From an uncultured Phascolarctobacterium sp. (GTDB lineage Bacteria; Bacillota; Negativicutes; Acidaminococcales; Acidaminococcaceae), in contig CANREP010000017.1 of NCBI GenBank assembly GCA_947629685.1, forward strand, positions 1 through 40,039: a stretch of 40,039 bases of DNA, in the 5' to 3' direction. Below, in pieces: positions 24,171 to 40,039 of the stretch. How positions within the stretch are numbered: position 1 is the stretch's first letter; each line of letters begins with the position of its first letter. The notes under the pieces are model-generated. The model saw only the letters and a program-made list of their open reading frames with translations. It did no database searches and was not told the origin of the DNA. The translations under genes were made by a program, and so were the position numbers.

Positions 24171-24181
24171 TATATGTAATC

Positions 24182-24208
24182 AAAGACACGTGGAATCACG
24201 TGTCTTTT
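24182..24208 (+). terminator. Terminator of rnpB
   Basis: AAAGACACGTG (24182-24192), loop GAAT, CACGTGTCTTT (24197-24207), then T-rich sequence. Confidence 0.92.
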
Positions 24209-24317
24209 TCGTGTTATTTTTTATATTGGGGTTAAGTTTTGTTTAATGATGGGAAGCTATAATAAACGATAACGGATATTTTGCCGAAATCTATTTGTTT
24301 TTTTGTGGTGAAGTAAA

Positions 24318-25244
24318 ATGAAAAAAATTTCAGTTGTCGTTCCTGTATATAATGAACAGGAAAATTTACATGAATTTTATAAGCGTGTTACGGCAGTCAT
24401 GGGCGCCTCAGGTTACGACTATAATATTATTTTCGTCGATGATGGTTCTAAAGATAGCAGTGCATTTATTTTAAAGCAGCTTGTTGAACAAGACGGACAT
24501 GTAGAAGCATATCTGCTTTCGCGTAATTACGGACATCAGATGGCTTTGACCTGCGGTCTGGATAATGCTGACGGCGACGCTGTTATTACTATGGACGGCG
24601 ACCTGCAGCATCCGCCGGAACTTTTGCCGGAGCTGATACATCTCTGGGAAGAAGGCAGAGAAATCGTCATGACTAAACGTTTAGCAACAGAAGATGCCGG
24701 CTTTTTGAAAAATATTACCTCTTCGCTTTATTATAAGCTTATCAATATCATGTCCAAAGTAGAAATAACCCCAGGCGGTTCTGATTTTCGCCTTATGGAC
24801 AAAAAGGCCGTCGAAGCTTTCCGGCTGTACCGTGAGCGTGCCCGTTTTATACGCGGTATGGTAAGCACGCTTGGCTTTGATGTTGCTGTGGTAGATTTTG
24901 TTGCGCCGCCGCGTTTTGCCGGTCATTCAAAGTTCAATCTGCATAAGATGCTGCATTTTGCGTTGGATGGGATAACAGCTTTTTCTAATTTGCCGCTCCG
25001 CTGGGCTTTTTACTTGGGACTTTTTTTCGGTTTGTGCAGCATCCTGTTGCTGGGACATGTCTTTTATGTGAAATTGATCAGCGATGACGCGGTTCCGGGC
25101 TGGGCTACGACTACTGTAAGCGTATTGTTCCTGGGAGGTATCCAGCTGGTAGGAATTGGTATTTTAGGTGAATATATAGGCCGTATATTCGAAGAAATTA
25201 AGCATAGACCACTTTATTTAGTATCAAAACATTTGAAAAAATGA
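24318..25244 (+). CDS. GtrB/DPM1-like membrane-anchored glycosyltransferase (GT2)
   Basis: This 308-residue family 2 glycosyltransferase probably moves a sugar from a nucleotide donor to undecaprenyl phosphate at the inner face of the cytoplasmic membrane. The catalytic domain shows VVVPVYNEQENL (residues 5-16), FVDDGSKDSS and the acidic DGDLQHPPE (metal/donor site, about 94-102), then GGSDFRLMD and RGMVSTLGF. Two C-terminal membrane segments follow (about 233-255 and 266-290), ending EYIGRIFEEIKHRPLYL, as in GtrB, YkoT and DPM-type enzymes. No flippase or GtrC partner is adjacent. A TATAAT at 24258-24263 may be its -10, though the matching -35 is poor. Donor and acceptor are not determinable. 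Confidence 0.88.
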   Translation: MKKISVVVPVYNEQENLHEFYKRVTAVMGASGYDYNIIFVDDGSKDSSAFILKQLVEQDGHVEAYLLSRNYGHQMALTCGLDNADGDAVITMDGDLQHPPELLPELIHLWEEGREIVMTKRLATEDAGFLKNITSSLYYKLINIMSKVEITPGGSDFRLMDKKAVEAFRLYRERARFIRGMVSTLGFDVAVVDFVAPPRFAGHSKFNLHKMLHFALDGITAFSNLPLRWAFYLGLFFGLCSILLLGHVFYVKLISDDAVPGWATTTVSVLFLGGIQLVGIGILGEYIGRIFEEIKHRPLYLVSKHLKK

Positions 25245-25251
25245 TTTTTAT

Positions 25252-25280
25252 TTTACAGGATAGCTATTTTATGATAAAAT
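25252..25280 (+). promoter_or_regulatory. Promoter of the NlpC/P60 gene
   Basis: TTTACA (25252-25257), 17-base spacer, TAAAAT (25275-25280), 29 bases before the start codon. Confidence 0.65.
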
Positions 25281-25308
25281 AAACCTGTATTAGGCGGAAA
25301 GGATGTGG

Positions 25309-25983
25309 ATGCGTTTGGGAAAAAAGAAGTTGTTTATTGTTTTAACTTTCACCCTTTTGTTTTCCTTGACAAATGCTGTTGCTGCATTTGCTTCTTTTGA
25401 ACGCGGAGATGACGGCCAAGAGGTAATGGCTATCCAAAAGCGTTTAGTGGAATTGAGTTACACTATTACTAATATAGATGGTGATTTTGGCCCAGAAACC
25501 GAGAATGCTGTCAGAAAATTCCAGGCGGACAGAGGTTTGGAAGTTGATGGTGTAATTGGTCCTGATACATACAGAGCGTTAATGAACAGGGATATTCCTC
25601 CCAACCGCGGAAGAAGTTCTGTTGTACGTCGCGTATTAAGCGCAGCCTATAGCGTCATTGGCACTCCATATGTATTTGGCGGCACCTCTCCCTATGGATT
25701 TGACTGTTCCGGATTTACTCAGTATGCTTTTGCGCAGGCAGGCATCTCCATTCCGAGAACGGCAGACAGCCAGTTATATTATGGCCGTCGTGTTTCCATG
25801 GATAATCTGCGTGTGGGCGATCTTATTTTCTTTTCTACTTATGAACCGGGCGCGTCGCATTGCGGTATTTATGTTGGTAATGGTAACTTTATTCATGCGG
25901 GTACGAGTACGGGCGTAACTGTTGCTTCTGCTTTTACCGGCTATTGGGGAGCTCGTTATTACGGAGCTTGCAGAATTTTATAA
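25309..25983 (+). CDS. Exported NlpC/P60 peptidoglycan endopeptidase with PG-binding domain
   Basis: This exported cell-wall hydrolase of 224 residues probably cuts the D-Glu-diaminopimelate bond in peptidoglycan stem peptides. A signal peptide (KKKLFIVLTFTLLFSL, cleavage near AAFA) is followed by a PG_binding_1 domain (about 30-92; GDDGQEVMAIQKRL, DGDFGPETENAVRKFQ) and an NlpC/P60 domain with catalytic Cys133 in FDCSGFTQYAF, His184 in SHCGIYVG and His196 in FIHAGT. ATG 25309 is preferred because GCGGAAAGG lies 6-8 bases upstream; ATG 25303 overlaps that site too closely. It is transcribed alone, with its own promoter and terminator. Confidence 0.93.
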   Translation: MRLGKKKLFIVLTFTLLFSLTNAVAAFASFERGDDGQEVMAIQKRLVELSYTITNIDGDFGPETENAVRKFQADRGLEVDGVIGPDTYRALMNRDIPPNRGRSSVVRRVLSAAYSVIGTPYVFGGTSPYGFDCSGFTQYAFAQAGISIPRTADSQLYYGRRVSMDNLRVGDLIFFSTYEPGASHCGIYVGNGNFIHAGTSTGVTVASAFTGYWGARYYGACRIL

Positions 25984-25990
25984 TGTTTCA

Positions 25991-26020
25991 AACAGACAGG
26001 TCTTGGCCTGTCTGTTTTGT
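25991..26020 (+). terminator. Terminator of the NlpC/P60 gene
   Basis: AACAGACAGG (25991-26000), loop TCTTGG, CCTGTCTGTT (26007-26016), then TTGTTT. Confidence 0.9.
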
Positions 26021-26077
26021 TTAGATTGAAATCAGTGCAGAAAATTTTAAATAAACAGTTAAAATTTTTCTGTGATA

Positions 26078-26106
26078 TTGGTTTTTTGCTTCGTATGTGA
26101 TATAAT
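26078..26106 (+). promoter_or_regulatory. Promoter of the cobalamin operon
   Basis: TTGGTT (26078-26083), 17-base spacer ending TGA (extended -10), TATAAT (26101-26106). Transcription would begin near 26113, just ahead of the riboswitch. Confidence 0.7.
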
Positions 26107-26121
26107 ATCAAAGTAATTCAT

Positions 26122-26220
26122 TATATGAGTGCTTTTCAGCTTAAATGGTGAGAAGATTTTTAATCGTTACGGTCCCGCCGCTGTGCAAGCAGATGCTTAA
26201 GTCAGCAGCCAACTCATATA
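26122..26220 (+). promoter_or_regulatory. Cobalamin riboswitch aptamer
   Basis: TATATGAGT (26122-26130) pairs with ACTCATATA (26212-26220) to close the outer helix. Inside lie GGTGAGAAG (from 26147), the highly conserved ACGGTCCCGCCGCTGTG (26169-26185) and a B12-box relative AAGTCAGCAGCC (26199-26210). The box departs from the classical AAGYCAGGAGACCTGCC, and the long P6-P10 insert of standard AdoCbl riboswitches is missing, so this is a compact variant. It leads into an intrinsic terminator at 26301-26334 upstream of cbiD, which implies B12-dependent transcription termination. Confidence 0.85.
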
Positions 26221-26300
26221 GATAGCTATAATCCACGAGCGATGGAGGCAGCAATGATACGCTACGGCCGCAAAGGCAGTGGCAAATTAGTGGTGTCTTG

Positions 26301-26334
26301 AAGACTTCTGTCGTTGCTGGCAGAAGTCTTTTTT
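26301..26334 (+). terminator. Riboswitch-controlled intrinsic terminator
   Basis: AAGACTTCTG (26301-26310), 10-base loop, CAGAAGTCTT (26321-26330), then T-run to 26334. It lies between aptamer and cbiD. The loop TCGTTGCTG (26311-26319) can pair with CAGCAATGA (26249-26257), a possible alternative fold. The stretch 26221-26300 between aptamer and terminator is expression platform with no gene. Confidence 0.85.
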
Positions 26335-26384
26335 GTTTATCAGTAATATTTTGTATTTGAGAGTTTTTAAAAGGAGTAGTGGCT

Positions 26385-27524
26385 GTGGAAGAATACCAAT
26401 TTTCTCAGGGAAAAAATCTGCGCTGCGGATATACTACCGGAAGCTGTGCAGCCGCGGCTTCTAAAGCTGCTGCAACTATGTTTTTAAGCGGGAGCAGGGT
26501 GGACGTAGTCAAAATAGACACTCCTAAAGGCATTGTTCTGGAATTGGAGCCGTTGAACGTAGAAATCACGCCGGATTATGTAAGTTGTGCTATCCGTAAA
26601 GATTCTGGTGATGACCCTGATGATACTAACGGCGTCTTAGTTTATGCCAGAGTAGAAAAGAGTCAAGGGACAGAAATTGAGATTGAAGGCGGCATAGGCG
26701 TCGGACGTGTTACTAAGCCGGGACTGGCTTGCGCTGTCGGCGGATCAGCTATCAACCCCGTTCCCAGGAAGATGATTACAGACGAGGTTACGGCTGCCGC
26801 AGCGGCAGCAGGATATAGCGGCGCTTTAAAGGTGACTATTTCTATTCCTGCAGGTGTTGAAATCGCTAAAAAGACCTTTAATCCCCGCTTGGGGATTGTT
26901 GGAGGCCTGTCGGTACTGGGAACCAGCGGCATAGTAGAGCCCATGAGCGAAAAAGCGCTGGTGGAAACCATGTATGTGGAAATGAATGCGCAGAAAGCCA
27001 AGGGTAATAAAAATTTATTGGTGTTTTTCGGCAATTATGGAGAAGATTTTACGCGCGATGTGCTGAAATTAGATTTGTCTGATGCCGTAACCTGCAGTAA
27101 TTTTGTAGGCGAGCTGCTGGATTACGCCGTATTTTGCGGCTTTGAAACCTTGCTTTTGATAGGACATTCCGGCAAGCTGGTCAAACTGGCGCAGGGGGTT
27201 ATGAATACCCATTCCAAATATGCGGATTGCCGTACTGAGCTGTTGGCTTTGCAGGCTATGTTTCACGGCGCTTCTGCCGATGTAGGCAAGGAGATTTATA
27301 AATGTCTGACTACTGACGAGGTTGTCAAAGTTCTGCAGCGAGAAGGATTGCAGGAGCAGGTCATGCAGGAAATAACTGCTAAAATTGATTTTTACATGCA
27401 GCATCGTGTGCATGGTAAAATAAAAACCGCGGGGCTGATGTTTTCCAACGTTTACGGCGTTTTAGGCAAAACTGAGTATGCGGAAGAGCTTATCAAACTA
27501 CATGTAAAAAGAGAAGGAGAATGA
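26385..27524 (+). CDS. cbiD: Cobalt-precorrin-5B C1-methyltransferase CbiD
   Basis: CbiD methylates C1 of cobalt-precorrin-5B in the anaerobic cobalamin pathway. The 379-residue product carries the family signature RCGYTTGSCAAAASKAA near the N terminus, KDSGDDPDDTNG, GGIGVGRVTKPGL and INPVPRKMI. Later comes GGLSVLGTSGIVEPMSE and the FFGNYGEDF/LLIGHSGKLVKLA segments. GTG 26385 is preferred over GTG 26379 because AAGGAG at 26371-26376 leaves 8 rather than 2 bases. It is the first gene behind the riboswitch terminator and 7 bases before cbiL. Confidence 0.95.
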   Translation: MEEYQFSQGKNLRCGYTTGSCAAAASKAAATMFLSGSRVDVVKIDTPKGIVLELEPLNVEITPDYVSCAIRKDSGDDPDDTNGVLVYARVEKSQGTEIEIEGGIGVGRVTKPGLACAVGGSAINPVPRKMITDEVTAAAAAAGYSGALKVTISIPAGVEIAKKTFNPRLGIVGGLSVLGTSGIVEPMSEKALVETMYVEMNAQKAKGNKNLLVFFGNYGEDFTRDVLKLDLSDAVTCSNFVGELLDYAVFCGFETLLLIGHSGKLVKLAQGVMNTHSKYADCRTELLALQAMFHGASADVGKEIYKCLTTDEVVKVLQREGLQEQVMQEITAKIDFYMQHRVHGKIKTAGLMFSNVYGVLGKTEYAEELIKLHVKREGE

Positions 27525-27531
27525 GAGAAAT

Positions 27532-28233
27532 ATGAGAGGTAAACTTTACAGTGTGGGTATCGGACCTGGCGACCCGGAACTTTTGACCTTAAAGGCTGTA
27601 CGTCTTTTAAAGGAATGTGATGTCGTAGCCTTGCCGAAGGGCGATACGGATGTTATGACTGCGAAGAATATCGTTAATCAGGTTGTCAATCTGGATGAAA
27701 AGGAACAGATCATTATCTATATGCCCATGACTAAGGATATGGTTGCCATGGATAAAGCCCATCGTGAAGGTGCTGAAGCGGTTATGAAGCTTTTGGATGA
27801 AGGCAAGAATGTCGTTTTCATTACTTTGGGCTGCCCGACGGTATATGCTACCTGTATTTATGTGCATAAACTTGTGCTGGCTGCCGGTTACGATGCTGAG
27901 CTTGTTGCAGGCGTGACCTCCATATGTGCTGTTGCCGCCAGACTGAATACTTCCCTGTGCGAGAGAGCGGAACCGTTGATTATTCTTCCCGGCAGCTATA
28001 AAGAAGCTGCTAAGTTCCTGGATGGCCCTGGTAATAAGGTGCTGATGAAATCCGCCAGCGAAATCGGCCGCGTGCGCGAAGAACTGAAAGAACGCGGACT
28101 GCTCAGCCATGCGGCAATGGTTGAACGCTGCGGGCTTCCTGGTGAAAAGGTTTACCGCGATCTGGAACAGATCGATCCTAACAGCAGTTATTTCTCTGTT
28201 ATACTGGTTAAAGAAAAGGAGTTTGATAAATAA
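27532..28233 (+). CDS. cbiL: Cobalt-precorrin-2 C20-methyltransferase CbiL
   Basis: CbiL transfers a methyl from S-adenosylmethionine to C20 of (cobalt-)precorrin-2, the entry step of the corrin branch. The 233 residues belong to the tetrapyrrole methylase family: SVGIGPGDPELLTLKAVRLL (residues 7-26) is the SAM-binding glycine loop, and VVFITLGCPTVYATCIYVH and VAGVTSICAVAARL are the CbiL/CobI-type motifs. AAGGAGA at 27514-27520 serves the ATG. Its stop shares a base with the cbiF start (TAATG). Confidence 0.93.
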   Translation: MRGKLYSVGIGPGDPELLTLKAVRLLKECDVVALPKGDTDVMTAKNIVNQVVNLDEKEQIIIYMPMTKDMVAMDKAHREGAEAVMKLLDEGKNVVFITLGCPTVYATCIYVHKLVLAAGYDAELVAGVTSICAVAARLNTSLCERAEPLIILPGSYKEAAKFLDGPGNKVLMKSASEIGRVREELKERGLLSHAAMVERCGLPGEKVYRDLEQIDPNSSYFSVILVKEKEFDK

Positions 28234-29018
28234 TGATTTATTTTATTGGTGCAGGTCCCGGTGCTGTTGATCTGATTACTGTTAAAGGCAAAGAACTGCT
28301 GGAAAAGGCAGATTTGATTATTTATGCAGGTTCGCTGGTTAATCCGGGTCTGCTGCAATATGCTAAACCGGAATGTGTAATCATGGACAGTGCGAAAATG
28401 ACTTTGGAAGAAGTTATTGCCGCTATGGTACCGGCAGCTCAGGCTGGTAAGCTGGTAGTACGCCTGCATACTGGCGACCCCAGCGTTTATGGTGCGCATC
28501 GTGAACAGATCGATATGCTGCGCAGCTACAACCTGGACTTTGAAATCGTTCCCGGCGTAAGTTCTGTCTGTGCAGCTGCAGCAGCGCTGGATGCAGAATA
28601 TACTCTGCCGAATGTCAGTCAGTCTGTAATCATCACCCGTATGGAAGGGCGTACTCCTGTTCCCAGTAAACAGAAGATTGCCGACTATGCGGCCCATAAA
28701 GCGACCATGGTTATTTTCCTCAGCTCAGGTATGCTGGAAAAACTGCAGGGCGAACTTATTAAAGGCGGCTATACCGCCGATACCCCGGCTGCTATTGTCT
28801 ACAAAGCTTCCTGGCCCGATGAAAAAGTAGTACGCTGTACCGTGGGTACATTGGCTGAAAGTGCTGCTAAATATAATATTACCAAGACTGCGCTTATTAC
28901 TGTCGGCAACTTCCTCGGCAGTGAATATGATCGCAGCGAACTTTATAATCCTACCTTTGCCCATGGCTACCGTGCGGCAGACCCGAGTAAGCTGGAACTT
29001 AAACCAGAGGTAAAATAA
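28233..29018 (+). CDS. cbiF: Cobalt-precorrin-4 C11-methyltransferase CbiF
   Basis: CbiF adds the C11 methyl to cobalt-precorrin-4 using S-adenosylmethionine. The 261-residue product opens MIYFIGAGPGAVDLITVKG, with IIYAGSLVNPGLLQYAKP, VRLHTGDPSVYGAHREQ and PGVSSVCAAAAAL, all typical of CbiF/CobM. ITRMEGRTPVP is the conserved substrate-site segment. Start overlaps the cbiL stop by one base, and the stop abuts the cbiG start without a gap. Standard length. Confidence 0.95.
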   Translation: MIYFIGAGPGAVDLITVKGKELLEKADLIIYAGSLVNPGLLQYAKPECVIMDSAKMTLEEVIAAMVPAAQAGKLVVRLHTGDPSVYGAHREQIDMLRSYNLDFEIVPGVSSVCAAAAALDAEYTLPNVSQSVIITRMEGRTPVPSKQKIADYAAHKATMVIFLSSGMLEKLQGELIKGGYTADTPAAIVYKASWPDEKVVRCTVGTLAESAAKYNITKTALITVGNFLGSEYDRSELYNPTFAHGYRAADPSKLELKPEVK

Positions 29019-30089
29019 ATGCAGGCGGTTGTATATTCCTTTTCTCGGCGGGGAGCTGAGCTGAGCAAAAAGGTTTGTGCGTTTTTAATTACGGCTGGCT
29101 ATGATGCCGCGGCACAGACTTTGCCCAAATATGCGGCTGCTCCCGGAATCGGAGTAATGCTGCCGGATTATAAAACAGCATGTGCAGAAGCATTTCAGAA
29201 ATGCGGCATAATCGTTTTTGTCGGTGCTGCAGGTATAGCGGTACGCACTATCGCGCCTTATATAAAAAGCAAACTGACTGATCCGGCAGTGATTTCTGTT
29301 GATGAAAAGGGTAATTTTGTCATCCCTCTTTTGGCAGGACATATTGGCGGCGCTAATGAAATTGCGCGCTGTTTGGCCGGATTTTTGGGCGGTACTGCCT
29401 GCGTTACTACTGCAACTGACGTTAACGGGCTTTTTGCGGTTGACGAGTGGGCAGCGCGTAATCGGATGACGATTGCTTCCATGCAGGCTGCTAAAGAATT
29501 TGCTGCAGCGCTTGTCGCAGGAGAACAGACGGGATTAGTCAGCAATTTTCCGGTGATCAGTACACTGCCGCAAGGAATGCAGTTTTATACGGGAGAAGAT
29601 GCTCCTGCTGTCGGGCTTGATATTGCCCTAAATACTTGCAGCAGTCCTTTTGCAACTACATTGCATCTGCTGCCGCGTATTGTGCATCTTGGGATAGGAT
29701 GCAGGCGAGGGACGGAAAGCAAAGACATTGCTTTGCTGGTGCTGCCTGAGTTGGAGCGTTTAGAAATCGACAGTCGCGCTGTCTGCAGTATAGCTTCGGT
29801 TGATTTAAAGAAAGATGAACAGGGACTGTTAGAATTTGCCGCTACTCAGGGATGGCCGGCAAATTTTTATACAGCAGAAGAACTTCAAGCCGTGTCGGGC
29901 CATTTTACCCCTTCTAACTTTGTTAAAGGCATTGTAGGTGTTGATAATGTCTGTGAGCGCAGTGCGGTTAAAGACAGTAACGGCGGTAAACTGCTGCTGC
30001 GCAAAACGAGCAGAAACGGCGTTACGCTTGCGGTAGCGGTGGAAGATATCGTTATAGATTTTTATAAAACAGGTTTGAAAACTGAATAA
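29019..30089 (+). CDS. cbiG: Cobalt-precorrin-5A hydrolase CbiG
   Basis: CbiG opens the delta-lactone of cobalt-precorrin-5A, releasing acetaldehyde and forming precorrin-5B. The 356 residues show the N-terminal domain (about 1-120) with FVGAAGIAVRTIAPYIKSK and VIPLLAGHIGGANEIAR, a middle domain, and the C-terminal domain starting at LGIGCRRGTESKDI with the end region VCERSAV. It is a free-standing form, unlike the CbiG-CbiH or CbiG-CbiF fusions of some Firmicutes. The ATG directly follows the cbiF stop, with its Shine-Dalgarno inside cbiF. Confidence 0.93.
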   Translation: MQAVVYSFSRRGAELSKKVCAFLITAGYDAAAQTLPKYAAAPGIGVMLPDYKTACAEAFQKCGIIVFVGAAGIAVRTIAPYIKSKLTDPAVISVDEKGNFVIPLLAGHIGGANEIARCLAGFLGGTACVTTATDVNGLFAVDEWAARNRMTIASMQAAKEFAAALVAGEQTGLVSNFPVISTLPQGMQFYTGEDAPAVGLDIALNTCSSPFATTLHLLPRIVHLGIGCRRGTESKDIALLVLPELERLEIDSRAVCSIASVDLKKDEQGLLEFAATQGWPANFYTAEELQAVSGHFTPSNFVKGIVGVDNVCERSAVKDSNGGKLLLRKTSRNGVTLAVAVEDIVIDFYKTGLKTE

Positions 30090-30111
30090 ATAATAAGGAT
30101 GGTTAGAATAT

Positions 30112-30843
30112 ATGTCTAAATTGTATGTTGTAGGTCTTGGACCAGGCGGCGTAGAGCAGATGACTAAGCGGGCTTATGAAGCGCTTCAGTCTTGCGACGT
30201 TATTGCAGGGTATCATGTGTATGTCAATTTGATTAAAGAAGATTTCAAGGAAAAAGAATTTCTTTCCACTGGGATGCGCAAGGAAGTGGACCGCTGCAAG
30301 CTGGCTCTTGACGAAGCGCTCAAGGGCAAGACTGTGGCCATGATTTCCAGCGGCGATGCCGGCGTTTACGGTATGGCTGGCATCATGTTCCAGGTTGCTG
30401 CCGAGCATCCTGAGGTAGAAATCGAGGTTGTTCCCGGCATTACTGCGGCTTGCTCTGGCGCCGCTGTCCTTGGGGCGCCGCTGATCAGCGATTTTTGCCT
30501 TATTTCTTTGAGCGACTTGCTTACTCCTTGGGAAAAAATCGAAAAAAGACTGGATTGTGCGTCTCAGGCTGATTTCTGTATCTGTCTGTACAATCCTTCC
30601 AGCATCAAACGTCATGACTACCTGCAAAAAGCTTGTGATATCATGCTGAAAAATCAGAGCGGCGATGTTCCGGCAGGTATTGTACGCAATATCGGACGTG
30701 AGGGTGAAAGTTATGAACTGACCACCTTACGTGAACTGCGCGATAAACAGGTAGATATGTTCTCTACCGTTATTATCGGCAATTCTCAGACCCAGGTAAT
30801 CAATGGCCGTCTTGTTACTCCGCGCGGTTATAAACTGGTATGA
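30112..30843 (+). CDS. cbiH: Cobalt-precorrin-3 C17-methyltransferase CbiH
   Basis: CbiH methylates C17 with ring contraction, the key step that makes the corrin ring. The 243-residue tetrapyrrole methylase opens LYVVGLGPGGVEQMTKRAYEAL split by the usual GxGPG loop, followed by VIAGYHVYVNLI, ISSGDAGVYGMAGIM and VPGITAACSGAAVLGAPL. CLYNPSSIKRHDYL is characteristic of CbiH/CobJ. This is the short form lacking the extra C-terminal iron-sulfur or nitrite-reductase-like domain seen in some long homologues. AAGGATGG precedes the ATG. It overlaps cbiJ by 4 bases (ATGA). Confidence 0.94.
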   Translation: MSKLYVVGLGPGGVEQMTKRAYEALQSCDVIAGYHVYVNLIKEDFKEKEFLSTGMRKEVDRCKLALDEALKGKTVAMISSGDAGVYGMAGIMFQVAAEHPEVEIEVVPGITAACSGAAVLGAPLISDFCLISLSDLLTPWEKIEKRLDCASQADFCICLYNPSSIKRHDYLQKACDIMLKNQSGDVPAGIVRNIGREGESYELTTLRELRDKQVDMFSTVIIGNSQTQVINGRLVTPRGYKLV

Positions 30844-31604
30844 GGCCGGCAGTCTGGATTATTGGCGGCACCAGCGAAGGACGCAACCTGGTAAAATCTT
30901 TGGCTGGCTTTAATATTGATATCTATGTTTCTGTGGCTACGGAGTATGGAGCAGGACTGATTGAAAAACAGGATAATATCAAAGTAATGGCCGCCAGGAT
31001 GGATTTAAAGGCCATGAGGGAATTTCTTCAGGAGCATAGGCCGGAATGTGTTATCGATGCTACGCATCCTTATGCAACGGTAGTGACGGCGACGGTCAAA
31101 GAGGCCTGTGCGACAGAAGCTTGTAAGTATCTGCGCTTATTACGGCCGTCCAGCGAAAGCGGCGAATACATAACCGTCAGTGATTTTGCTGAAGCAGTCG
31201 AGCTGCTGAATCATATGGAAGGCAATATCTTTTTGACTACCGGCAGCAAGAATCTGAAAGATTTTACTGCAGTTAAAGATTATGCTGAGCGGACAGCGCT
31301 GCGCATCCTGCCAATGGAAGAATCGTTACATACTGCATTGAGCCTTGGTTATAAACCGGCCAATGTTGTCTGTATGCAGGGACCTTTTTCCCGTGAACTG
31401 AATATTGCCATGCTGAAAAAGTTCCATAGTAAATTTATGGTAACGAAAGATTCTGGAGCAGCAGGCGGCTTTGAAGAAAAAGCAGAAGCTGCCGCGGCTG
31501 CGGGAGCCAAACTGCTGGTAATAGGCCGTGAGCCTGAAGAAGGAACTGGTTACAGTGATGTATTAAATTATTTGTATCAGCAATATGCGGATACGCGACT
31601 TTGA
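30840..31604 (+). CDS. cbiJ: Cobalt-precorrin-6A reductase CbiJ
   Basis: CbiJ reduces cobalt-precorrin-6A with NAD(P)H. The 254 residues show WIIGGTSEGRNLVKSL at the N terminus (dinucleotide-binding), CVIDATHPYATVVTATVKEAC, FLTTGSKNLKDF and VCMQGPFSRELNIAML, then VTKDSGAAGGFEEKAEAA, which is the family's best-conserved stretch. The ATG overlaps the cbiH stop (ATGA), implying translational coupling. cbiET follows after 20 bases. Confidence 0.93.
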   Translation: MRPAVWIIGGTSEGRNLVKSLAGFNIDIYVSVATEYGAGLIEKQDNIKVMAARMDLKAMREFLQEHRPECVIDATHPYATVVTATVKEACATEACKYLRLLRPSSESGEYITVSDFAEAVELLNHMEGNIFLTTGSKNLKDFTAVKDYAERTALRILPMEESLHTALSLGYKPANVVCMQGPFSRELNIAMLKKFHSKFMVTKDSGAAGGFEEKAEAAAAAGAKLLVIGREPEEGTGYSDVLNYLYQQYADTRL

Positions 31605-31624
31605 TAAATTAAGGAGTGCTGTTT

Positions 31625-32839
31625 ATGCTGCGAGTTAATATTGTAGGTATTGGTCCGGGCAACCCGGAATTGCTTACAGGCGCTGCTATCAAAGCCATCA
31701 AGGAAAGTAATATCCTGATTGGCGATAAAAGGATGCTGGCGGCATTTACTGAAGCGGGTAAAAAAACTTATGATACTATTAAGACTGCGGATATAGTAGC
31801 CATTGCGGCAGCAGCCGATCCTCAAAAGGATGTTGTTGCAGTGCTTGTTTCCGGCGACGTAGGTTTTTTCAGCCTGGCAAAAACTATCAGCGGCAGGCTG
31901 CCGGATTGTAAATGCGTCCGTTACAGCGGTATCAGCAGCCTGGTCTATTTTGCGGCGCAGCTGCAGATGTCCTGGGACGATGCAAAAATCGTTAGTATGC
32001 ATGGAAGAAAACAAAACCTTGTCGCGGCTGTAGCGGCAAACAAAAAGGTGTTTTCTCTTACAGGCGGCGAGCATACACCGCAGCTTTTGTGCAGGCAGCT
32101 GTGTGAACATGGACTGACAGACGTACAGGTTTATGTAGGTGAAAATCTTTCCTACCCGGAAGAAAAAATTACTTCTGGTACGGCTGCTGAAATCAGCAGG
32201 CAGAAATTTCCTTCGCTGTCTGTGATGATGATCGTTAACGAGCGGGCTATGAAGCATCCGCCTGTGGTGCATGGTTTAGCTGACGAATTGTTCACCCGCA
32301 GCAAGGTGCCGATGACTAAGCAGGAAGTACGCAGCGTCTCCATGTCTAAATTGATGCCCAAGGCGACTGATAAGATTTATGATATCGGCGCAGGTACTGG
32401 TTCCTGCTCGGTAGAGCTGGCTTTATTAGCTAAGCAGGGGCATGTATGGGCATTTGAACGCAATCCAGAAGCATTGGAGCTCATTCATAAAAACAAAGCT
32501 TTGTTTGGAATTGAAAATTTAGAGATAATCGCCGGAGAAGCTTTGGAAAATATCAAAGATATGCCTGCACCGGATTGCGTCTTTGTCGGCGGCAGCGGCG
32601 GCGATCTATGTGAAATGCTCGATATAATCTATACTAAAAATCCTAACTGCCGTATCGTTATCAATGCTATAACTATTGAAACATTGGCAGAAGTTGCAGA
32701 GTATTATAAAAAACATCAGGATTATTCTTTGGAAATCGTTAATATCTGCGTTGCCCGCAGCCGTAAGCTGGGCAGCTACAATCTGATGATGGCCCAGAAT
32801 CCTGTATATGTTATGACGGCATTGAAGAAGGATGAATAA
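31625..32839 (+). CDS. cbiET: Fused cobalt-precorrin-7 C5-methyltransferase / C15 decarboxylating methyltransferase CbiE-CbiT
   Basis: One 404-residue chain carries CbiE (about 1-205, a tetrapyrrole methylase with VNIVGIGPGNPELLTGAAIKAI and VSGDVGFFSLAKTI) and CbiT (about 210-404, a Rossmann SAM methyltransferase with YDIGAGTGSCSVELALL and VFVGGSGGDLCEML). Together they add the C5 and C15 methyls and remove the C12 acetate carboxyl. The fusion equals aerobic CobL in layout. ATG 31625 is chosen with AAGGAG at 31611-31616; a GTG at 31616 overlaps that site. It ends beside or overlapping the cbiA start. Confidence 0.93.
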   Translation: MLRVNIVGIGPGNPELLTGAAIKAIKESNILIGDKRMLAAFTEAGKKTYDTIKTADIVAIAAAADPQKDVVAVLVSGDVGFFSLAKTISGRLPDCKCVRYSGISSLVYFAAQLQMSWDDAKIVSMHGRKQNLVAAVAANKKVFSLTGGEHTPQLLCRQLCEHGLTDVQVYVGENLSYPEEKITSGTAAEISRQKFPSLSVMMIVNERAMKHPPVVHGLADELFTRSKVPMTKQEVRSVSMSKLMPKATDKIYDIGAGTGSCSVELALLAKQGHVWAFERNPEALELIHKNKALFGIENLEIIAGEALENIKDMPAPDCVFVGGSGGDLCEMLDIIYTKNPNCRIVINAITIETLAEVAEYYKKHQDYSLEIVNICVARSRKLGSYNLMMAQNPVYVMTALKKDE

Positions 32840-32840
32840 A

Positions 32841-34205
32841 ATGGCTGAATTACGGATTCCCCGTTTTATGATAAGCGCTCCTGGCAGCGGCAGCGGTAAA
32901 ACGACTATCGTCTGCGGTTTGCTGAAAGCGTTGATGAATATGGGTCTCAAGACTGCTGCTTTTAAATCTGGTCCGGACTATATTGACCCGATGTTCCATT
33001 CCAAGGTTATCGGCGCAAAATCACGCAACCTTGATTTATTTATGCTGGGAGATTCAACTACCAGGTATCTGGCGGCAAAAAATTCCCAAGACGCGGACAT
33101 AGCAGTATTTGAAGGCGCAATGGGATTTTATGACGGTATGGGCAAGACGGATGAGGCAAGCGCTTATAAACTTGCCTGTGTCTGCGATGTGCCGGTAATA
33201 CTCGTCGTTAATGGTAAAGGAGCAGCTCTCTCGCTGGCAGCGCAAATAAAAGGTTTTAAAGACTTTCGTGCTGACAGCCATATTGCAGGGGCGATTATCA
33301 ATAACGTCAATCCCATGAGTTATCTGTTTTATAAGGATGTTATAGAACAGGAAACTGGCATCAAACTGTTGGGATATTTTCCTGTAATGAAAGACTGCAA
33401 TTTCGAGAGCCGGCATCTGGGGCTTATTACTGCTGAAGAAATCGGTGATTTGCAGACTATAGTTGACCGGCTGGCTGTTCAGGCCGCTAAATCTGTTGAT
33501 TTGCAGGGGCTTTTAGCCATTGCGCGTCAGGCTGAGCCCTTACAGTATGATGAACAAAAGATTAGAGCAGTGGGAAAAGCACGTATTGCAGTTGCGCAGG
33601 ATAAAGCATTTTGCTTCTATTACCAGGACGCGCTGGATTTATTATCTGAGCTGGGTGCGGAATTAGTACCGTTTAGTCCGCTTATGGACAAGTATTTGCC
33701 GGAAGATTGCCAGGGTTTGATCCTTGGCGGCGGTTACCCGGAAATTTATGCGCAGCAGCTTGCTGCCAACCGCACTATGCTGAATAATATCCGACAGGCT
33801 TTGCAGCAGGGAATGCCATGTTTTGCTGAATGCGGCGGCTTTATGTACCTTTTGGAGCATTATCGTGAAGGCGAACAAGTTTATGGTTGGGCAGGCGTCA
33901 TTGCGGGCGAAACTGCTATGACAAAAAAATTGAATCGTTTCGGCTATGTGCATTTAACAGCGCTGAATGATAATCTGCTGTGCCGTAAAGGTGAAAAAAT
34001 CAACGGACATGAATTTCATTATTCCGACAGCAGTAATAATGGCAGCAGCTTCTTAGCCGAGAAAGCTTCCGGCAAAGGAGCCTGGCAGTGCGCTCACGCG
34101 AATGAAAATATCTATGCTGGTTATCCGCATATCCACTTGTGGGGAAATCCAGTGTTTGCCCGTAATTTTGTACAACGCTGCTGTGAGTACGGACAGAAAA
34201 AATAA
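32841..34205 (+). CDS. cbiA: Cobyrinate a,c-diamide synthase CbiA
   Basis: CbiA amidates the a and c side chains of cobyrinate using glutamine and ATP. The 454-residue product has an N-terminal P-loop domain (APGSGSGKTT near residues 13-22, then FKSGPDYIDPMFH) and a C-terminal class I glutamine amidotransferase-like domain with GLILGGGYPEIYA and the nucleophile Cys in CFAECGGFMYL. HGHEFHYSD-like sequence (INGHEFHYSD) follows. ATG 32841 has AAGAAGGA upstream with good spacing; ATG 32832 is an in-frame alternative overlapping the cbiET end. Confidence 0.93.
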   Translation: MAELRIPRFMISAPGSGSGKTTIVCGLLKALMNMGLKTAAFKSGPDYIDPMFHSKVIGAKSRNLDLFMLGDSTTRYLAAKNSQDADIAVFEGAMGFYDGMGKTDEASAYKLACVCDVPVILVVNGKGAALSLAAQIKGFKDFRADSHIAGAIINNVNPMSYLFYKDVIEQETGIKLLGYFPVMKDCNFESRHLGLITAEEIGDLQTIVDRLAVQAAKSVDLQGLLAIARQAEPLQYDEQKIRAVGKARIAVAQDKAFCFYYQDALDLLSELGAELVPFSPLMDKYLPEDCQGLILGGGYPEIYAQQLAANRTMLNNIRQALQQGMPCFAECGGFMYLLEHYREGEQVYGWAGVIAGETAMTKKLNRFGYVHLTALNDNLLCRKGEKINGHEFHYSDSSNNGSSFLAEKASGKGAWQCAHANENIYAGYPHIHLWGNPVFARNFVQRCCEYGQKK

Positions 34206-34234
34206 AGAGCCTGTGGGCTAAGGGGACTTTGTTT

Positions 34235-35203
34235 ATGATGACATTAGCTGCCATTACGGCCGGCTTCATTTTGGATCTGCTTTTTGGCGACCCTCACTGG
34301 CTGCCGCATCCTATATGTTTGATAGGAAACTTAATAGGCTTTTTGGAAAAAAATCTGCGCAGGATATTTGCTTTCAGCAATACAGCGCTGTTGCTGAGCG
34401 GCGGTTTCATGGTATTGATAGTATTGCTGTGCACTTATCTGGTGCCGTATTTTATTCTGTATGAAGCAGAGAAAATAAGCGTCTGGCTTGCTTTTGTTTT
34501 GGAAACAATCATGTTTTATCAGATATTCGCTACCAAATGTCTGCGCGAAGAAAGTATGAAGGTTTATGATGCCTTGCAGAAAGACGATTTGGCAGATGCC
34601 AGAGTTAAACTGTCTTGGATTGTTGGCCGTGATACTAAAAATCTGACGAGCGAAGAAGTTACTAAAGGCGCTGTGGAAACCGTGGCAGAAAATACTGCAG
34701 ATGGAGTTATCGCTCCCATGTTTTATATGTTTATCGGCGGTGCTCCGCTTGCTTTTTTATACAAAGGAATCAATACCATGGATTCCATGGTAGGCTATAA
34801 AAATGATAAGTATCTGTATTTTGGCAGATGTGCAGCTAAACTTGATGATATTGCCAATTTCATACCGGCGCGTATTTCCGGCATGGTGATGATGTTGGCT
34901 GCATATTTTCTTAATTTTGACAGTAAACAGGCCTGGAAAACATTCTGGCGCGACAGATATAATCATCTAAGCCCTAATTCTGCCATGACAGAATCTGTTG
35001 CTGCAGGCGCGCTTAATATCCAGCTGGGCGGCGGACATTTCTATTTTGGTAAATGGGTGCCCAAGGATACTATAGGTGATGATATCAGGCCGGTAGTGGC
35101 GGAAGATATCGTTGCCGTGAATAATTTACTATATATGTCGGCTGTGATAAGTATTTTGCTCTTTGCGTTAATTTATCTGCTGGAAATATTTATTGCGGCT
35201 TGA
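34235..35203 (+). CDS. cbiB: Adenosylcobinamide-phosphate synthase CbiB
   Basis: This integral membrane enzyme of 322 residues attaches (R)-1-amino-2-propanol phosphate to adenosylcobyric acid. Landmarks are GFILDLLFGDPHWLPHPICLIG at the N terminus (split here for clarity into DLLFGDPHWLPHP), LSWIVGRDTKNL, VETVAENTADGVIAPMFY, YKGINTMDSMVGYKND and the late motif HLSPNSAMTESVAAGAL. About five hydrophobic segments. ATG 34235 is chosen with AAGGGGA at 34220-34226; the frame is open to TTG 34229. cobD, which makes the aminopropanol phosphate, follows after 19 bases. Confidence 0.94.
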   Translation: MMTLAAITAGFILDLLFGDPHWLPHPICLIGNLIGFLEKNLRRIFAFSNTALLLSGGFMVLIVLLCTYLVPYFILYEAEKISVWLAFVLETIMFYQIFATKCLREESMKVYDALQKDDLADARVKLSWIVGRDTKNLTSEEVTKGAVETVAENTADGVIAPMFYMFIGGAPLAFLYKGINTMDSMVGYKNDKYLYFGRCAAKLDDIANFIPARISGMVMMLAAYFLNFDSKQAWKTFWRDRYNHLSPNSAMTESVAAGALNIQLGGGHFYFGKWVPKDTIGDDIRPVVAEDIVAVNNLLYMSAVISILLFALIYLLEIFIAA

Positions 35204-35222
35204 TTTTAGAGGATGGGAAGCT

Positions 35223-36311
35223 ATGTATACTTACGTTCATGGTGGGGATATCTATACTCAGAAGCAAACTGCCGACGGCAAGGCAATGGTTGATTTTTCT
35301 GCTAATATCAATCCGTTGGGGCTGCCGTCAGGCGTTAAGAATGCAATAAGAAATGCAATTAAACAATGCGTTAACTATCCAGATCCATTTTGCCGCGAGT
35401 TAGCGCAGGCAACTGCAGATTTTCTGCATGTAGATAAAGATTGGCTGTTTTTCGGCAATGGTGCAGCTGATGTGCTTTTTAGATTAGCACTGGCTTTAAA
35501 GCCAAAAAAAGCACTGCTTTTAGCGCCTACTTTTGCTGATTATGAGAAAGCGCTGCGTTCTGTTGATTGCGGTATCAGTTACTATAATTTGCAGCCAAAA
35601 CATGCTTTTACAGTGCAAAAAGATATTTTGCGGCGGATTACCCCGAGAACAGATATAGTAGTTATCTGCAATCCCAATAATCCTACCGGGCAGCTTACTG
35701 GCCGGGAACTGCTGGAACATATCCTTGCTAAGTGTAATGCAGTAGGAGCTTATCTTTTAGTTGATGAATGTTTTATGGATTTTGTCGATAGCAGCAGGGC
35801 GTACAGTATGCGCAATTTATTGGCTGACAATCAGAAGCTGATTATTTTAAAGGCTTTTACTAAAACTTTTGCTATTCCGGGCGTAAGACTCGGCTATTGT
35901 CTGAATGCAGACGGCGCTTTGCATAAGCTTCTGCACGAAAGCGGTCAGGACTGGAGCGTTTCAGTTTTGGCTCAGGAGGCAGGGCGTGCTGCGCTCTTAG
36001 AAAAAGAATATTTGCATGAATCATATCTGCTGATTGAGGAAGAACGTCAGTATCTTATCAATCAGCTGAAAGCATTGGGAGCTGAAGTGTACGGCTCAAA
36101 CGCTAATTATATATTTTTTTATATGGAAAAACCCGTACAGTTAAAGGAGCTGCTTCATAAGCAAGGATATATAATCCGCTCCTGTGCCAATTATCACAAT
36201 CTTGGCGACGGGTATTACAGAATCGCGGTAAAAACAAGGGTGCTGAACCGCGGACTTATCAAAGCAATTAAGGAAGCAAGAAAAAATGCGCTCATTACTG
36301 GTACTTATTGA
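35223..36311 (+). CDS. cobD: Threonine-phosphate decarboxylase CobD
   Basis: CobD is a PLP enzyme of the class I/II aminotransferase fold that decarboxylates L-threonine O-3-phosphate to aminopropanol phosphate, the substrate of CbiB. The 362 residues open YVHGGDIYTQ and contain VDFSANINPLGLP, CNPNNPTGQL, VDECFMDFVD and the PLP-lysine motif LKAFTKTFAIPGVRLGY. The start at ATG 35223 follows AGAGGATGGGAAG and matches homologue openings; an in-frame start at 35193 would overlap cbiB. It overlaps the ApgM-like gene by 26 bases. No threonine kinase (PduX) gene is in the window. Confidence 0.92.
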   Translation: MYTYVHGGDIYTQKQTADGKAMVDFSANINPLGLPSGVKNAIRNAIKQCVNYPDPFCRELAQATADFLHVDKDWLFFGNGAADVLFRLALALKPKKALLLAPTFADYEKALRSVDCGISYYNLQPKHAFTVQKDILRRITPRTDIVVICNPNNPTGQLTGRELLEHILAKCNAVGAYLLVDECFMDFVDSSRAYSMRNLLADNQKLIILKAFTKTFAIPGVRLGYCLNADGALHKLLHESGQDWSVSVLAQEAGRAALLEKEYLHESYLLIEEERQYLINQLKALGAEVYGSNANYIFFYMEKPVQLKELLHKQGYIIRSCANYHNLGDGYYRIAVKTRVLNRGLIKAIKEARKNALITGTY

Positions 36312-37413
36312 CGGTTTAGGTGATGAACCTATTCCCGGTTGGAATGGGCTTACTCCCTTTCAACGGGCACGACATCTGAATATAGACAAATTGCTTGCTG
36401 GCAATGCCGCGGCAGAAATTTCCATCTGTGAGGATGATATTGTTCCAGAAAGCTGCAGCTGCATTTTGCGTCTGCTGGGGGTAAAAAACGAATTTATCCC
36501 AAGAAGCCGTTCTTACCTGGAATTGTTAGCACACAACAGAGATATTTCTGAATTTGAAATGGTATTAAGATGCAATTTGGTTGCTGTTAATAACGATGGT
36601 GTTATCACCGCTTTTAATGGCGCTGGATTAAATCCTCTGGAGATGCAGTCAGCTGCTGCTGTATGCGATGATATTTTGAAGGATATCGAATTTATTCATT
36701 TGTCTGAATATCGCAATCTGATGATTTTAAATAGAGAAGAACAGGTTTTAAATTGCATGGTACCGCCTCCGCATGAGAATGTTGGGGAAAATATTTTTTC
36801 CCTGCTGGCAGAACTTAAGCATAATTCGCTGGCAATGAAATATTTTCTGGAGGTATCGGCGCGAAAACTGCAAAATTTCAGCCGTAACGGAATCAGGTAT
36901 ATGCTTTATCCGTGGGGCGCAGCTGACAGATGCGTGCTGCCGTCTTTTCAGGCGCTGCATCAGTTAAAGGGAGCTGCCGTATGCAAAGCGGAAATTGTAG
37001 CAGGTATTGCGAAAGCGCTGGGAATGCAGGTAGAGATTCCAAAACACGCTACAGGCGATATAGATACTGATATAGACGCAAAGGCGACGTCTGTACTGAA
37101 ATTACTGCCTGAAAACGACTTTGTTCTGGCACATTTTAATGGCAGCGACGAAGCTTCGCATCGCTACGACGCGGCTGGAAAGCAGCATTTTATCGAAAAA
37201 ATTGACAAAGGTTTTCTTGGCAGGATTATGCAGGAATATAAGCAGCCTGTGAAAATAGTTGTTTGCGGAGATCATGTAACCAGTTCGGTCAGCGGTAAGC
37301 ATGGTCGCGGCGCGGTGCCGGTAGTTGCAGGCATCAGCAATGGTTTGGCTGTGACTACGCATATGACCTCATACCAAGACATAATAAACTTTTTAATGAG
37401 AGAGAGTGATTGA
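36286..37413 (+). CDS. Divergent ApgM-family (alkaline phosphatase superfamily) enzyme in the B12 operon
   Basis: The 375-residue product resembles archaeal-type cofactor-independent phosphoglycerate mutase (ApgM). Visible family blocks are [12 protein letters not shown] (first metal Asp), [25 protein letters not shown] (metal ligands Asp/His) and [17 protein letters not shown] (second DH metal pair). The segment that in ApgM holds the catalytic Ser (PGSDVAN-type) reads [13 protein letters not shown], and the RGPLEA-type segment reads RSYLELL, so the active site is altered. Its place between cobD and cbiP, tightly packed, implies a B12 role. Alpha-ribazole phosphate phosphatase, otherwise missing here, is my best guess. 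A glycolytic mutase is less likely. Confidence 0.75.
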
Positions 37414-37414
37414 T

Positions 37415-38935
37415 GTGGCAAAAGCGATAATGGTGCAGGGAACGATGTCCAATGCAGGAAAAAGTCTGGTAACTGCCGGTTTGTGCCGTGTATTTAATCA
37501 GGATGGCAAAAAAGTGGCTCCGTTTAAATCGCAGAATATGGCGCTGAACTCTTTTATTACCAGAGAAGGTGCTGAAATGGGGCGTGCTCAGGTTGTACAG
37601 GCAGAAGCGGCTAACATCGAGCCAAGTGCGCTGATGAATCCTATTCTCCTGAAGCCTACCAGTGACAGCGGGTCTCAGGTAATAGTTAACGGTGAAGCTA
37701 TCGGCACCATGACCGCAGCTGAATACTTCAAATTCAAAACCAATCTCATCCCCGATATTATGAAAGCCTATAATCAGTTGGATGCCGCATATGATGTAAT
37801 TGTGCTGGAAGGAGCCGGCAGCCCTGCGGAAATTAACCTGAAAACCCAGGATATTGTAAATATGGGAATGGCTAAAATGGCTAAAGCTCCGGTGCTTTTA
37901 GTGGCTGATATTGACCGCGGTGGTGTTTTCGCTTCTATTTATGGCACATTGATGTTACTGGATGAAGACGAACGGGCTATGGTCAAAGGTGTGATTATCA
38001 ATAAATTCCGCGGCGATGTAGATATACTGCGCCCAGGGTTGGATATGATTGAGGCAAAGACCGGCGTACCAGTTGTCGGTGTGCTGCCTATGCTGCACGT
38101 CGATATTGAAGATGAGGACAGCCTGTCTGAAAGATTGACGGCGCACACTGAGGTCAAGCTGGTAGATATTGCAGTTGTTAGAATTCCGCGTATGTCCAAC
38201 TATACAGATTTCAATGTATTCGAGCTTATACCCGGCGTATCGCTGCGCTATGTGACTTCTGTAAAAGAATTAGGCAATCCTGATATGATTATTATTCCTG
38301 GGACTAAGAATACTATAGGCGACCTGAAATGGCTGCGACAGAGCGGCCTGGAAGCTGAAATCAAGAAAAAGGCCGATGAAGGTACTGTAATTTTTGGCGT
38401 TTGCGGCGGGTATCAGATGTTAGGTAATAATCTTTCTGACCCCTACGGCGTGGAAGAAGGCGGAGATACTCCCGGTATCGGCCTGTTGGATGTAGAAACT
38501 ATTTTTGCTGAGAAAAAACGTACTATTCAGATGTCCGGCAAATTCGGTACCGTGCAGGGGATTTTTGCTAAATTGAGCGGTAAACCTTTGATTGGATATG
38601 AAATTCACTCAGGCGTAACTAATTTTGCTCCTGCAAGCGCTATGACTGAAATCAAGCCAATTTATGAAGCTGGCGATACTATGCTTGAAGGCTCGCAAAA
38701 TGTTTCTGGGAAAATGAATGTTTACGGTACCTATGTACACGGCATTTTTGATGGTGAAGGTATAGCTGCCGCAGTAGTAGAAGCATTGCTGGCTAAAAAG
38801 GGCATGAAAATGGAGGATATCAAGACAGTTAACTTTGCTGACTATAAAAAACAGCAATATGATATCCTGGCAGACAGCATAAGAAAGAATCTGGATATGA
38901 AAAAAATCTATGCTATTTTGGAGGCTGGTGTGTAA
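37415..38935 (+). CDS. cbiP: Adenosylcobyric acid synthase CbiP
   Basis: CbiP (CobQ) amidates the b, d, e and g side chains of adenosylcobyrinic a,c-diamide using glutamine and ATP. The 506 residues have a P-loop domain ([20 protein letters not shown]), [25 protein letters not shown] and [15 protein letters not shown], then a C-terminal glutamine amidotransferase domain with nucleophile Cys in [11 protein letters not shown] and [11 protein letters not shown] 37415 is chosen with GAGAGAG upstream; GTG 37406 overlaps the end of the preceding gene. cobA begins immediately after its stop. Confidence 0.94.
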
Positions 38936-39466
38936 ATGAAAGACGGCGGCCTGATACACATATATTGCGGCGATGGCAAAGGCAAGACCACCGCTGCCGT
39001 TGGGTTGGCTGTACGGTGTTGCGGACGTGGCAATAAGGTTTTGTTGGTACAGTTTTTAAAAAGCAGGCCTACCGGCGAGCTTAACTCGCTTGCTTTGCTT
39101 CCTGGTATTGAAGTGTGGCGTGGAAAAGAAAACAACAAGTTTACTTTCCAGATGTCTGCAGAAGAAAAAAAAGCTGTTTTGCAAAGTCATATGGAATTAT
39201 TTGCCAAAGTACGGACAAGATGCCAGCAGGACAAAATAGACCTGCTTATTTTAGATGAAGTAATAGGAGCATGTAATACTGGCGTTTTTGAATTACAGCA
39301 GCTGTTGGAGTTTTTGAAAAATAAACCGCAAGAGCTGGAGGTAGTGCTTACAGGACGTAATCCTGCGGCTGAGCTTATTGAGCTGGCAGATTATGTATCA
39401 GAAATCTGTAAACGTAAACATCCATTTGATAAAGGTATTCCGGCGCGAACCGGGGTAGAAAGGTAG
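38936..39466 (+). CDS. cobA: Cob(I)yrinic acid a,c-diamide adenosyltransferase CobA/BtuR
   Basis: This enzyme transfers the 5'-deoxyadenosyl group of ATP to the cobalt(I) of corrinoids, forming the Co-C bond. The 176-residue CobA/BtuR-type protein shows IYCGDGKGKTTAAVGLAVR (P-loop), VLLVQFLKS, LLILDEVIGAC and the C-terminal VVLTGRNPAAELIELADYVSEI, all diagnostic. It is distinct from PduO and EutT types. ATG 38936 directly abuts the cbiP stop, with GGAGGCTGG inside cbiP as ribosome site. cbiC follows after 9 bases. Confidence 0.95.
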   Translation: MKDGGLIHIYCGDGKGKTTAAVGLAVRCCGRGNKVLLVQFLKSRPTGELNSLALLPGIEVWRGKENNKFTFQMSAEEKKAVLQSHMELFAKVRTRCQQDKIDLLILDEVIGACNTGVFELQQLLEFLKNKPQELEVVLTGRNPAAELIELADYVSEICKRKHPFDKGIPARTGVER

Positions 39467-39475
39467 GTTAGTAAG

Positions 39476-40039
39476 ATGCAGTTACAGAATGTATTGCCTG
39501 CGGATATTGAAAAACGCAGCATGGAAATTATTGGTGAAGAGCTGGGAGAAATTCAGCTGGACCCGGAAAAGATAGATATAATCAAACGTGTTATTCATAC
39601 TTCCGCTGACTTTGATTATGCGCGTACCATGCATTTTTCTGAAGGAGTAGTGGAAAAAGCGCTGGCAGCTTTGCAAAATGGGGCTACCATTGTTACAGAT
39701 ACAAATATGGCTTGCACCGGCATCAATAAAATGGGCCTTAGCAAACTGGGGGCAAAGGCAGTTTGCTTCATGGCTGATGCAGATGTTGCTGCACGCGCCA
39801 AAGAAGCTGGTTCTACCAGGGCTGCAGCCTGCATGGAAAAAGCCTGCAGCATAGAAGGGCCGGTTATTATAGCAGTGGGGAATGCGCCTACGGCTTTAGT
39901 TCGCCTCGACGAGCTGGTGAAAGAAGGACGTATAAAACCTGAATTGGTAATAGGCGTACCTGTGGGATTTGTCAATGTAGTAGAGTCGAAAGAAATAATC
40001 ATGAAGACTGGCATTCCCTATATCGTGGCGCGTGGACGT
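39476..40039 (+). CDS. cbiC: Cobalt-precorrin-8 methylmutase CbiC (cut by window end)
   Basis: CbiC moves the methyl from C11 to C12 of precorrin-8, giving cobyrinate. The visible 188 codons, open to the last base, cover most of the usual 205-210 residues: EKRSMEIIGEELG, the catalytic His in VIHTSADFDYA, TIVTDTNMACTGINK and VGNAPTALVRL, then VGVPVGFVNVVESKE-type sequence (IGVPVGFVNVVESKE). ATG 39476 follows GGTTAGTAAG, a weak ribosome site. It continues past the window. Confidence 0.93.
   Translation, partial: MQLQNVLPADIEKRSMEIIGEELGEIQLDPEKIDIIKRVIHTSADFDYARTMHFSEGVVEKALAALQNGATIVTDTNMACTGINKMGLSKLGAKAVCFMADADVAARAKEAGSTRAAACMEKACSIEGPVIIAVGNAPTALVRLDELVKEGRIKPELVIGVPVGFVNVVESKEIIMKTGIPYIVARGR

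Follow-up and report, generated by a model that had tools for sequence, protein, structure and literature searches.

What a relative of the phosphoglycerate mutases is doing in the middle of a cobalamin operon is the question raised by a gene at 36286-37413 (forward strand) of an uncultured Phascolarctobacterium sp. The window, that is the whole stretch of DNA analysed, is contig C17, 40039 nucleotides in length and ending at the contig end, of a 1.78 Mb genome that is 100% complete. The gene, of which this genome carries a single copy, is an intact ATG-initiated ORF encoding 375 amino acids with no internal stop, and its identical position in all 30 Acidaminococcaceae loci read shows that the ORF is not there by chance. 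Its start overlaps the 3′ end of cobD (36311) by 26 bp and the GTG initiator of cbiP is 1 base after its stop codon, a close packing that the reading of this DNA made from sequence alone had correctly described.

All the surrounding cobalamin genes are on the same strand. The upstream part of the operon (26379-34205) comprises cbiD, L, F, G, H, J, E/T and A, taken from ORF lists and named from their order, which is kept in relatives, and from resemblance. It is followed by cbiB, encoding the adenosylcobinamide-phosphate synthase that takes the CobD product (34229-35203; 254 bits with TIGR00380, cut-off 165.9) and by cobD, encoding L-threonine-O-3-phosphate decarboxylase (35223-36311; 282.8 bits with TIGR01140, cut-off 290.55). 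On the other side are cbiP, for cobyric acid synthase (37415-38935; 642 bits with NF001989), then cobA, for corrinoid adenosyltransferase, and cbiC, which together occupy 38936-40039, cbiC running off the end of the window. The cbiP start is set at GTG 37415 by comparison with the relatives L003 and L004, whose N-terminus is the same; an alternative GTG is at 37406. At the gathering threshold, an Rfam scan of 24000-40039 detected no cobalamin riboswitch. At 24000-24175, upstream of the cobalamin operon, is the 3′ portion of a bacterial RNase P RNA (RF00010), truncated where the scan begins. CobD is of ordinary length, about 360 amino acids, and so is without a fused kinase domain. Beside cobD, the step left without an enzyme is the phosphorylation of threonine, and since the gene is inside a B12 operon at a place where relatives keep a threonine kinase, it most likely supplies threonine phosphate. 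The gene is an orthologue of Dehalobacter cbiU, and its product is probably an L-threonine kinase, a maker of L-threonine-O-3-phosphate that replaces PduX in the Acidaminococcaceae.

The nearest named relative of the 375 amino acid protein, with 78% identity, is also from an uncultured Phascolarctobacterium. Kinship with ApgM and phosphoglycerate mutase, proposed at the outset, is confirmed by family profiles: both Pfam Metalloenzyme and PhosphMutase match above cut-off, and TIGR00306 (apgM) scores 214 bits, below its curated cut-off of 320. TIGR02535, the proposed homoserine kinase family here termed ThrB2, gives 164 bits, well under its curated cut-off of 446.3. The closest solved structure is 2zkt, an archaeal-type phosphoglycerate mutase (E=3.6e-27). 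An AlphaFold2 model from a four-sequence alignment has a pLDDT of 52.7, too poor for a fold search, and so the fold assignment of CbiU rests on homology to 2zkt. Family-profile searches of the protein found neither a GHMP kinase domain nor its PGSCGEL motif, and it has no nucleotide-binding motif of a recognized type.

Alignment of about 71-72 relatives, 2zkt and 3kd8 included, shows what has been kept and what has been exchanged. The metal ligands D9, D288, H292, D329, H330 and H339 are invariant, so the metal-binding blocks do remain as the sequence-only reading had it. D9, in a DGLGD motif, is encoded by the codon at 36310-36312, as checked in the DNA; D288 and H292 fall within codons 281-295 (37126-37170), and D329, H330 and H339 within codons 326-339 (37261-37302). 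The position of the nucleophile is Ser or Thr in every aligned sequence and is here Ser56 (36451-36453), aligning with the Ser of GSD in 2zkt and 3kd8. The catalytic-Ser segment had been described as changed, and this holds for the remainder of the motif, GSDTAH in ApgM and PES-x-x-CIL here, but not for the nucleophile itself. The altered RGPLEA-type segment also stands, the RGxFEA-type sequence reading RSRSYLELL in CbiU. Thus CbiU has all seven catalytic and metal residues in common with ApgM (2zkt, 3kd8), yet is distant from it in sequence and lacks its RRAG, RGAG and GSDTAH motifs. Residues invariant in ApgM, as judged from three ApgM sequences, one of them incomplete at H60, R110, R111 and R210, are swapped in almost every member of the CbiU clade, where H60 has become I, R110-R111 F-N, R210 W and D293 R. 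The arginines lost would be those with which ApgM binds phosphoglycerate. W210 and E289 of CbiU are absent from ApgM and common to the proposed homoserine kinases, whose acceptor closely resembles threonine, and this sharing may count in favor of a threonine kinase.

In a midpoint-rooted tree of CbiU, ThrB2 and ApgM sequences, 30 CbiU sequences from Acidaminococcaceae group with 10 from family f120 (support 99/96), one of which, L226, is very probably Dehre_1608 of Dehalobacter, judging by gene order. Addition of L242, L282, L283 and L284, which are on long branches such that their exact placement is unsure, gives a 44-member CbiU clade with support of 100/100 apart from the ThrB2 and ApgM group. 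All 44 members are located in cobalamin loci, the deep member L284 adjoining cbiC-cobA and not cobD. ThrB2 (TIGR02535, BT2402) resembles CbiU in superfamily, metal site, W210 and E289, and in having an amino-acid hydroxyl as its proposed acceptor. It differs in that identity is only about 26%, in its length of 400 or more amino acids compared to 375, in its PGSD-x-ANLS motif where CbiU has PES-x-x-CIL, and in being seldom found in cobalamin loci. ThrB2 genes adjoin hom and/or thrC in L202, L206 and L250, and others are elsewhere. Two ThrB2-like genes outside the CbiU clade are, however, in cobalamin operons (L240:6967-8175 of G542 and L243:3497-4699 of G515) in genomes with no GHMP kinases besides ThrB and IspE, and these may be independent recruitments of the superfamily to the same step.

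The distribution of the gene was examined with profiles in 250 Negativicutes genomes, 204 of which are cobD-positive. CbiU was found in 37, all in the Acidaminococcaceae; outside this family only G127 and G031 matched its profile, weakly and in part. All 30 Acidaminococcaceae loci read show the order cbiB-cobD-cbiU-cbiP, to the extent that their contigs reach. The 14 Acidaminococcaceae genomes without cbiU are all without cobD also, but as the two genes adjoin, their joint loss by one deletion is to be expected and the co-absence alone is weak evidence. PduX, searched for with a profile built from GHMP kinases encoded beside cobD, is present in 165 of the 250 genomes and in none that has CbiU. 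The sequence-only reading had proposed comparing the occurrence of this subfamily with the absence of cobC and pduX across genomes. With respect to pduX the outcome is strict exclusion: among the cobD-positive genomes 36, all of them Acidaminococcaceae, have CbiU only, 148 have PduX only, 20 have neither and none has both (Fisher 5.6e-26, which overstates the exclusion because cbiU sits in one clade and the independent sample is far smaller). The Negativicutes pattern is roughly that of one replacement event.

That the kinases in question are PduX needed separate support. In the 18 cobD loci read from outside the Acidaminococcaceae, a PGSCGEL-type GHMP kinase gene adjoins cobD in 17 and is one gene away in the other. 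NCBIfam gave no PduX name to the GHMP genes beside cobD and a search of solved structures gave no match for them; identity was set via the annotated PduX of Klebsiella, with which five to six of the cobD-adjoining kinases align (47 invariant columns; 31-50% identity to the first sequence). The 20 genomes with cobD and, by profile, neither PduX nor CbiU are mostly of family f14 (examples are L185-L196, and G063, G082, G098, G117, G118, G122, G130, G140, G143, G176 and others), and several of their loci run cbiB-cobS-cobD with no kinase in between. They may have a further source of threonine phosphate or a divergent PduX missed by the profile, and their existence means that absence of PduX alone requires no recognizable replacement. 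Conversely, a PduX-type kinase occurs without a cobD match at E 1e-70 in G044, G090, G149, G152, G155 and 12 more genomes, many of genus g48; a divergent or fused cobD, or another use of PduX, are possibilities.

A second lineage tells a similar story. In a sample of 398 genomes from across the phylum, the four strong matches to the CbiU profile (1e-113 to 1e-123) were all in the single family f120, with the next group at 1e-51. Within the class to which f120 belongs, 10 of the 23 genomes of f120, the Dehalobacter family, have CbiU and all 23 lack PduX, while PduX is present in 46 of the 52 other genomes. All ten f120 genes are between cobD and cbiP. One of these loci, that of G415, reads cbiA-cobU-cobS-orf-cobC-cbiB-cobD-X-cbiP-cobA. 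In Dehalobacter restrictus PER-K23, Dehre_1613 is cobS (PMC4285132); taking X as Dehre_1608 puts the G415 cobS at Dehre_1613 and so in agreement, and X is very probably Dehre_1608. It is this gene that was named cbiU and proposed in 2015 to encode an L-threonine kinase on the grounds that pduX was missing (PMC4285132). The Phascolarctobacterium protein is 42% identical to it over nearly its full length, the two are in the same clade, both have cbiB-cobD-X-cbiP-cobA as neighbors and both genomes lack pduX; the difference is that Dehalobacter has cobC, cobS and cobU within this operon and Phascolarctobacterium has them in a second one. The features that define the CbiU group, namely relatedness to ApgM and TIGR02535, location in a corrinoid operon, membership of the Dehre_1608 clade and a genome without pduX, were all found here. 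Beyond the Acidaminococcaceae and part of the Dehalobacter family, the CbiU solution would extend to a handful of genomes from three or more other Bacillota families.

The rest of the Phascolarctobacterium genome bears on what else the gene might do. Profile searches for GHMP kinases and PduX showed the genome to be without pduX, ThrB (263 bits, its gene beside hom) and IspE being its only GHMP kinases. The initial statement that neither cobC nor pduX was visible is correct for the window and, for pduX, for the whole genome. There is, though, a cobC on another contig, last in a cobU-cobT-cobS-(second cobT-like)-cobC operon and scoring 162.5 bits against the TIGR03162 cut-off of 162.9, which accounts for the alpha-ribazole phosphatase step. 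A full-length GpmI is encoded on contig C11, and with both ThrB and GpmI present neither a homoserine kinase nor a mutase is missing. A canonical thrB is also present in the other CbiU genomes that were checked. The third GHMP gene of G060 was considered as a PduX candidate and rejected, being in a heptose/sugar-nucleotide cluster and giving no match to the PduX profile. Two further observations concern the cobC surroundings and relatives. Between cobS and cobC is a partial CobT-like gene, consisting of the C-terminal half only (L142:8904-9704, contig C23), which recalls the arsAB pair involved with phenolyl cobamides in Negativicutes, yet lacks arsAB-like adjacency. A possibly decayed gene on contig C1 (24939-25474) encodes a CobC-like histidine phosphatase in two pieces and contains an in-frame TAA.

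A role as replacement for CobC, in which the phosphoserine formed at the Ser site would be hydrolysed rather than transferred and the substrate would be alpha-ribazole-5′-phosphate or adenosylcobalamin-5′-phosphate, was suggested by the alkaline-phosphatase superfamily of the protein, its cobalamin operon and the lack of cobC in the window. It is now very unlikely, as the genome has its cobC beside cobU, cobT and cobS; as cobC is even in one operon with the CbiU gene in the Dehalobacter-type genomes G415, G439, G484 and G626 and in the more distant G463, so that the expected association with cobC absence fails; and as it is PduX beside cobD, and not CobC, whose place the gene takes. A phosphoglycerate mutase of ApgM type is less likely still, notwithstanding the subfamily match and the structural relatives, since the score is under the family cut-off and almost the entire clade has exchanged the five residues H60, R110, R111, R210 and D293. 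The separate GpmI is a further argument against it: of the combination that had been put forward as evidence against a B12 role, a cobC gene with no other gpm gene, the former is found here but so is the latter's opposite. Equally remote is a homoserine kinase of ThrB2 type placed in the operon by chance, a reading to which the TIGR02535 match and the shared W210 and E289 lend some substance but with which the distance of the score from its cut-off, the separate clade and the canonical thrB beside hom are at odds.

The alternative closest to a threonine kinase is an enzyme for another linker precursor, either an L-serine kinase, leading via CobD to ethanolamine phosphate and norcobamides, or a kinase of free (R)-1-amino-2-propanol. 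The genomic evidence for it is identical, and CobD-type enzymes of Sulfurospirillum act on serine phosphate. It is nevertheless unlikely: no sequence feature of CbiU points to serine, an aminopropanol kinase would be unnecessary with cobD next door, and the enzymes replaced, PduX and BluE, are L-threonine kinases as shown by experiment (PMC6249242). These two, of the GHMP superfamily, are like CbiU in the reaction predicted for it and in operon position beside cobD, but being from an unrelated family they are its functional analogues and not homologues. Supply of threonine phosphate, also raised in the sequence-only reading, is thus well supported by the strict exclusion of CbiU and PduX among cobD-bearing genomes and by the position beside cobD.

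From the ApgM fold family and the operon we infer the substrate, donor and a phosphoserine relay for a threonine kinase of this type. A two-metal center formed by D9, D288, H292, D329, H330 and H339 would activate Ser56, which by analogy with cofactor-independent mutases would take a phosphoryl group from a donor, be it ATP, PEP or another phosphometabolite, and pass it to the beta-hydroxyl of L-threonine. The resulting L-threonine-O-3-phosphate would be the substrate of CobD, encoded by the preceding gene, with the CobD product, (R)-1-amino-2-propanol phosphate, passing to CbiB. A donor such as PEP was suggested for TIGR02535 by the TIGRFAM curators, and an E. coli thrB mutant was not rescued by BT2402 (PMC7311316), which leaves kinase activity unproven for this whole branch of the superfamily. 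On balance the fuller picture is favored, if less firmly than the assignment of function: an L-threonine kinase that has the phosphoglycerate mutase fold and is dedicated to cobalamin synthesis, is unrelated to PduX and BluE, is fixed in whole lineages and works through a phosphoserine relay whose donor is maybe not ATP.

The function was already proposed in 2015 for the Dehalobacter orthologue, and the searchable literature yielded neither a later test of that proposal nor a biochemical assay of any CbiU. What is new is that the proposal now extends to the Acidaminococcaceae, that exclusion with PduX is seen in two lineages, that a cobC role is argued against, that CbiU forms a clade of its own and that residue signatures are available for annotation. 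Many B12 producers show a gap in the pathway at the supply of threonine phosphate, and one survey dropped pduX as a pathway criterion since the annotation is missing from most verified producers (PMC6461909). The CbiU motif set is usable for annotation and would correct the misleading label ‘phosphoglycerate mutase’. If the proposal is true, it would provide a solid example of kinase chemistry in a superfamily where the proposed homoserine kinase stays unproven (PMC7311316). For the biology of the organisms, it gives a name to the likely threonine phosphate enzyme of a whole gut family, the Acidaminococcaceae, and supports the 2015 proposal for organohalide-respiring Dehalobacter.
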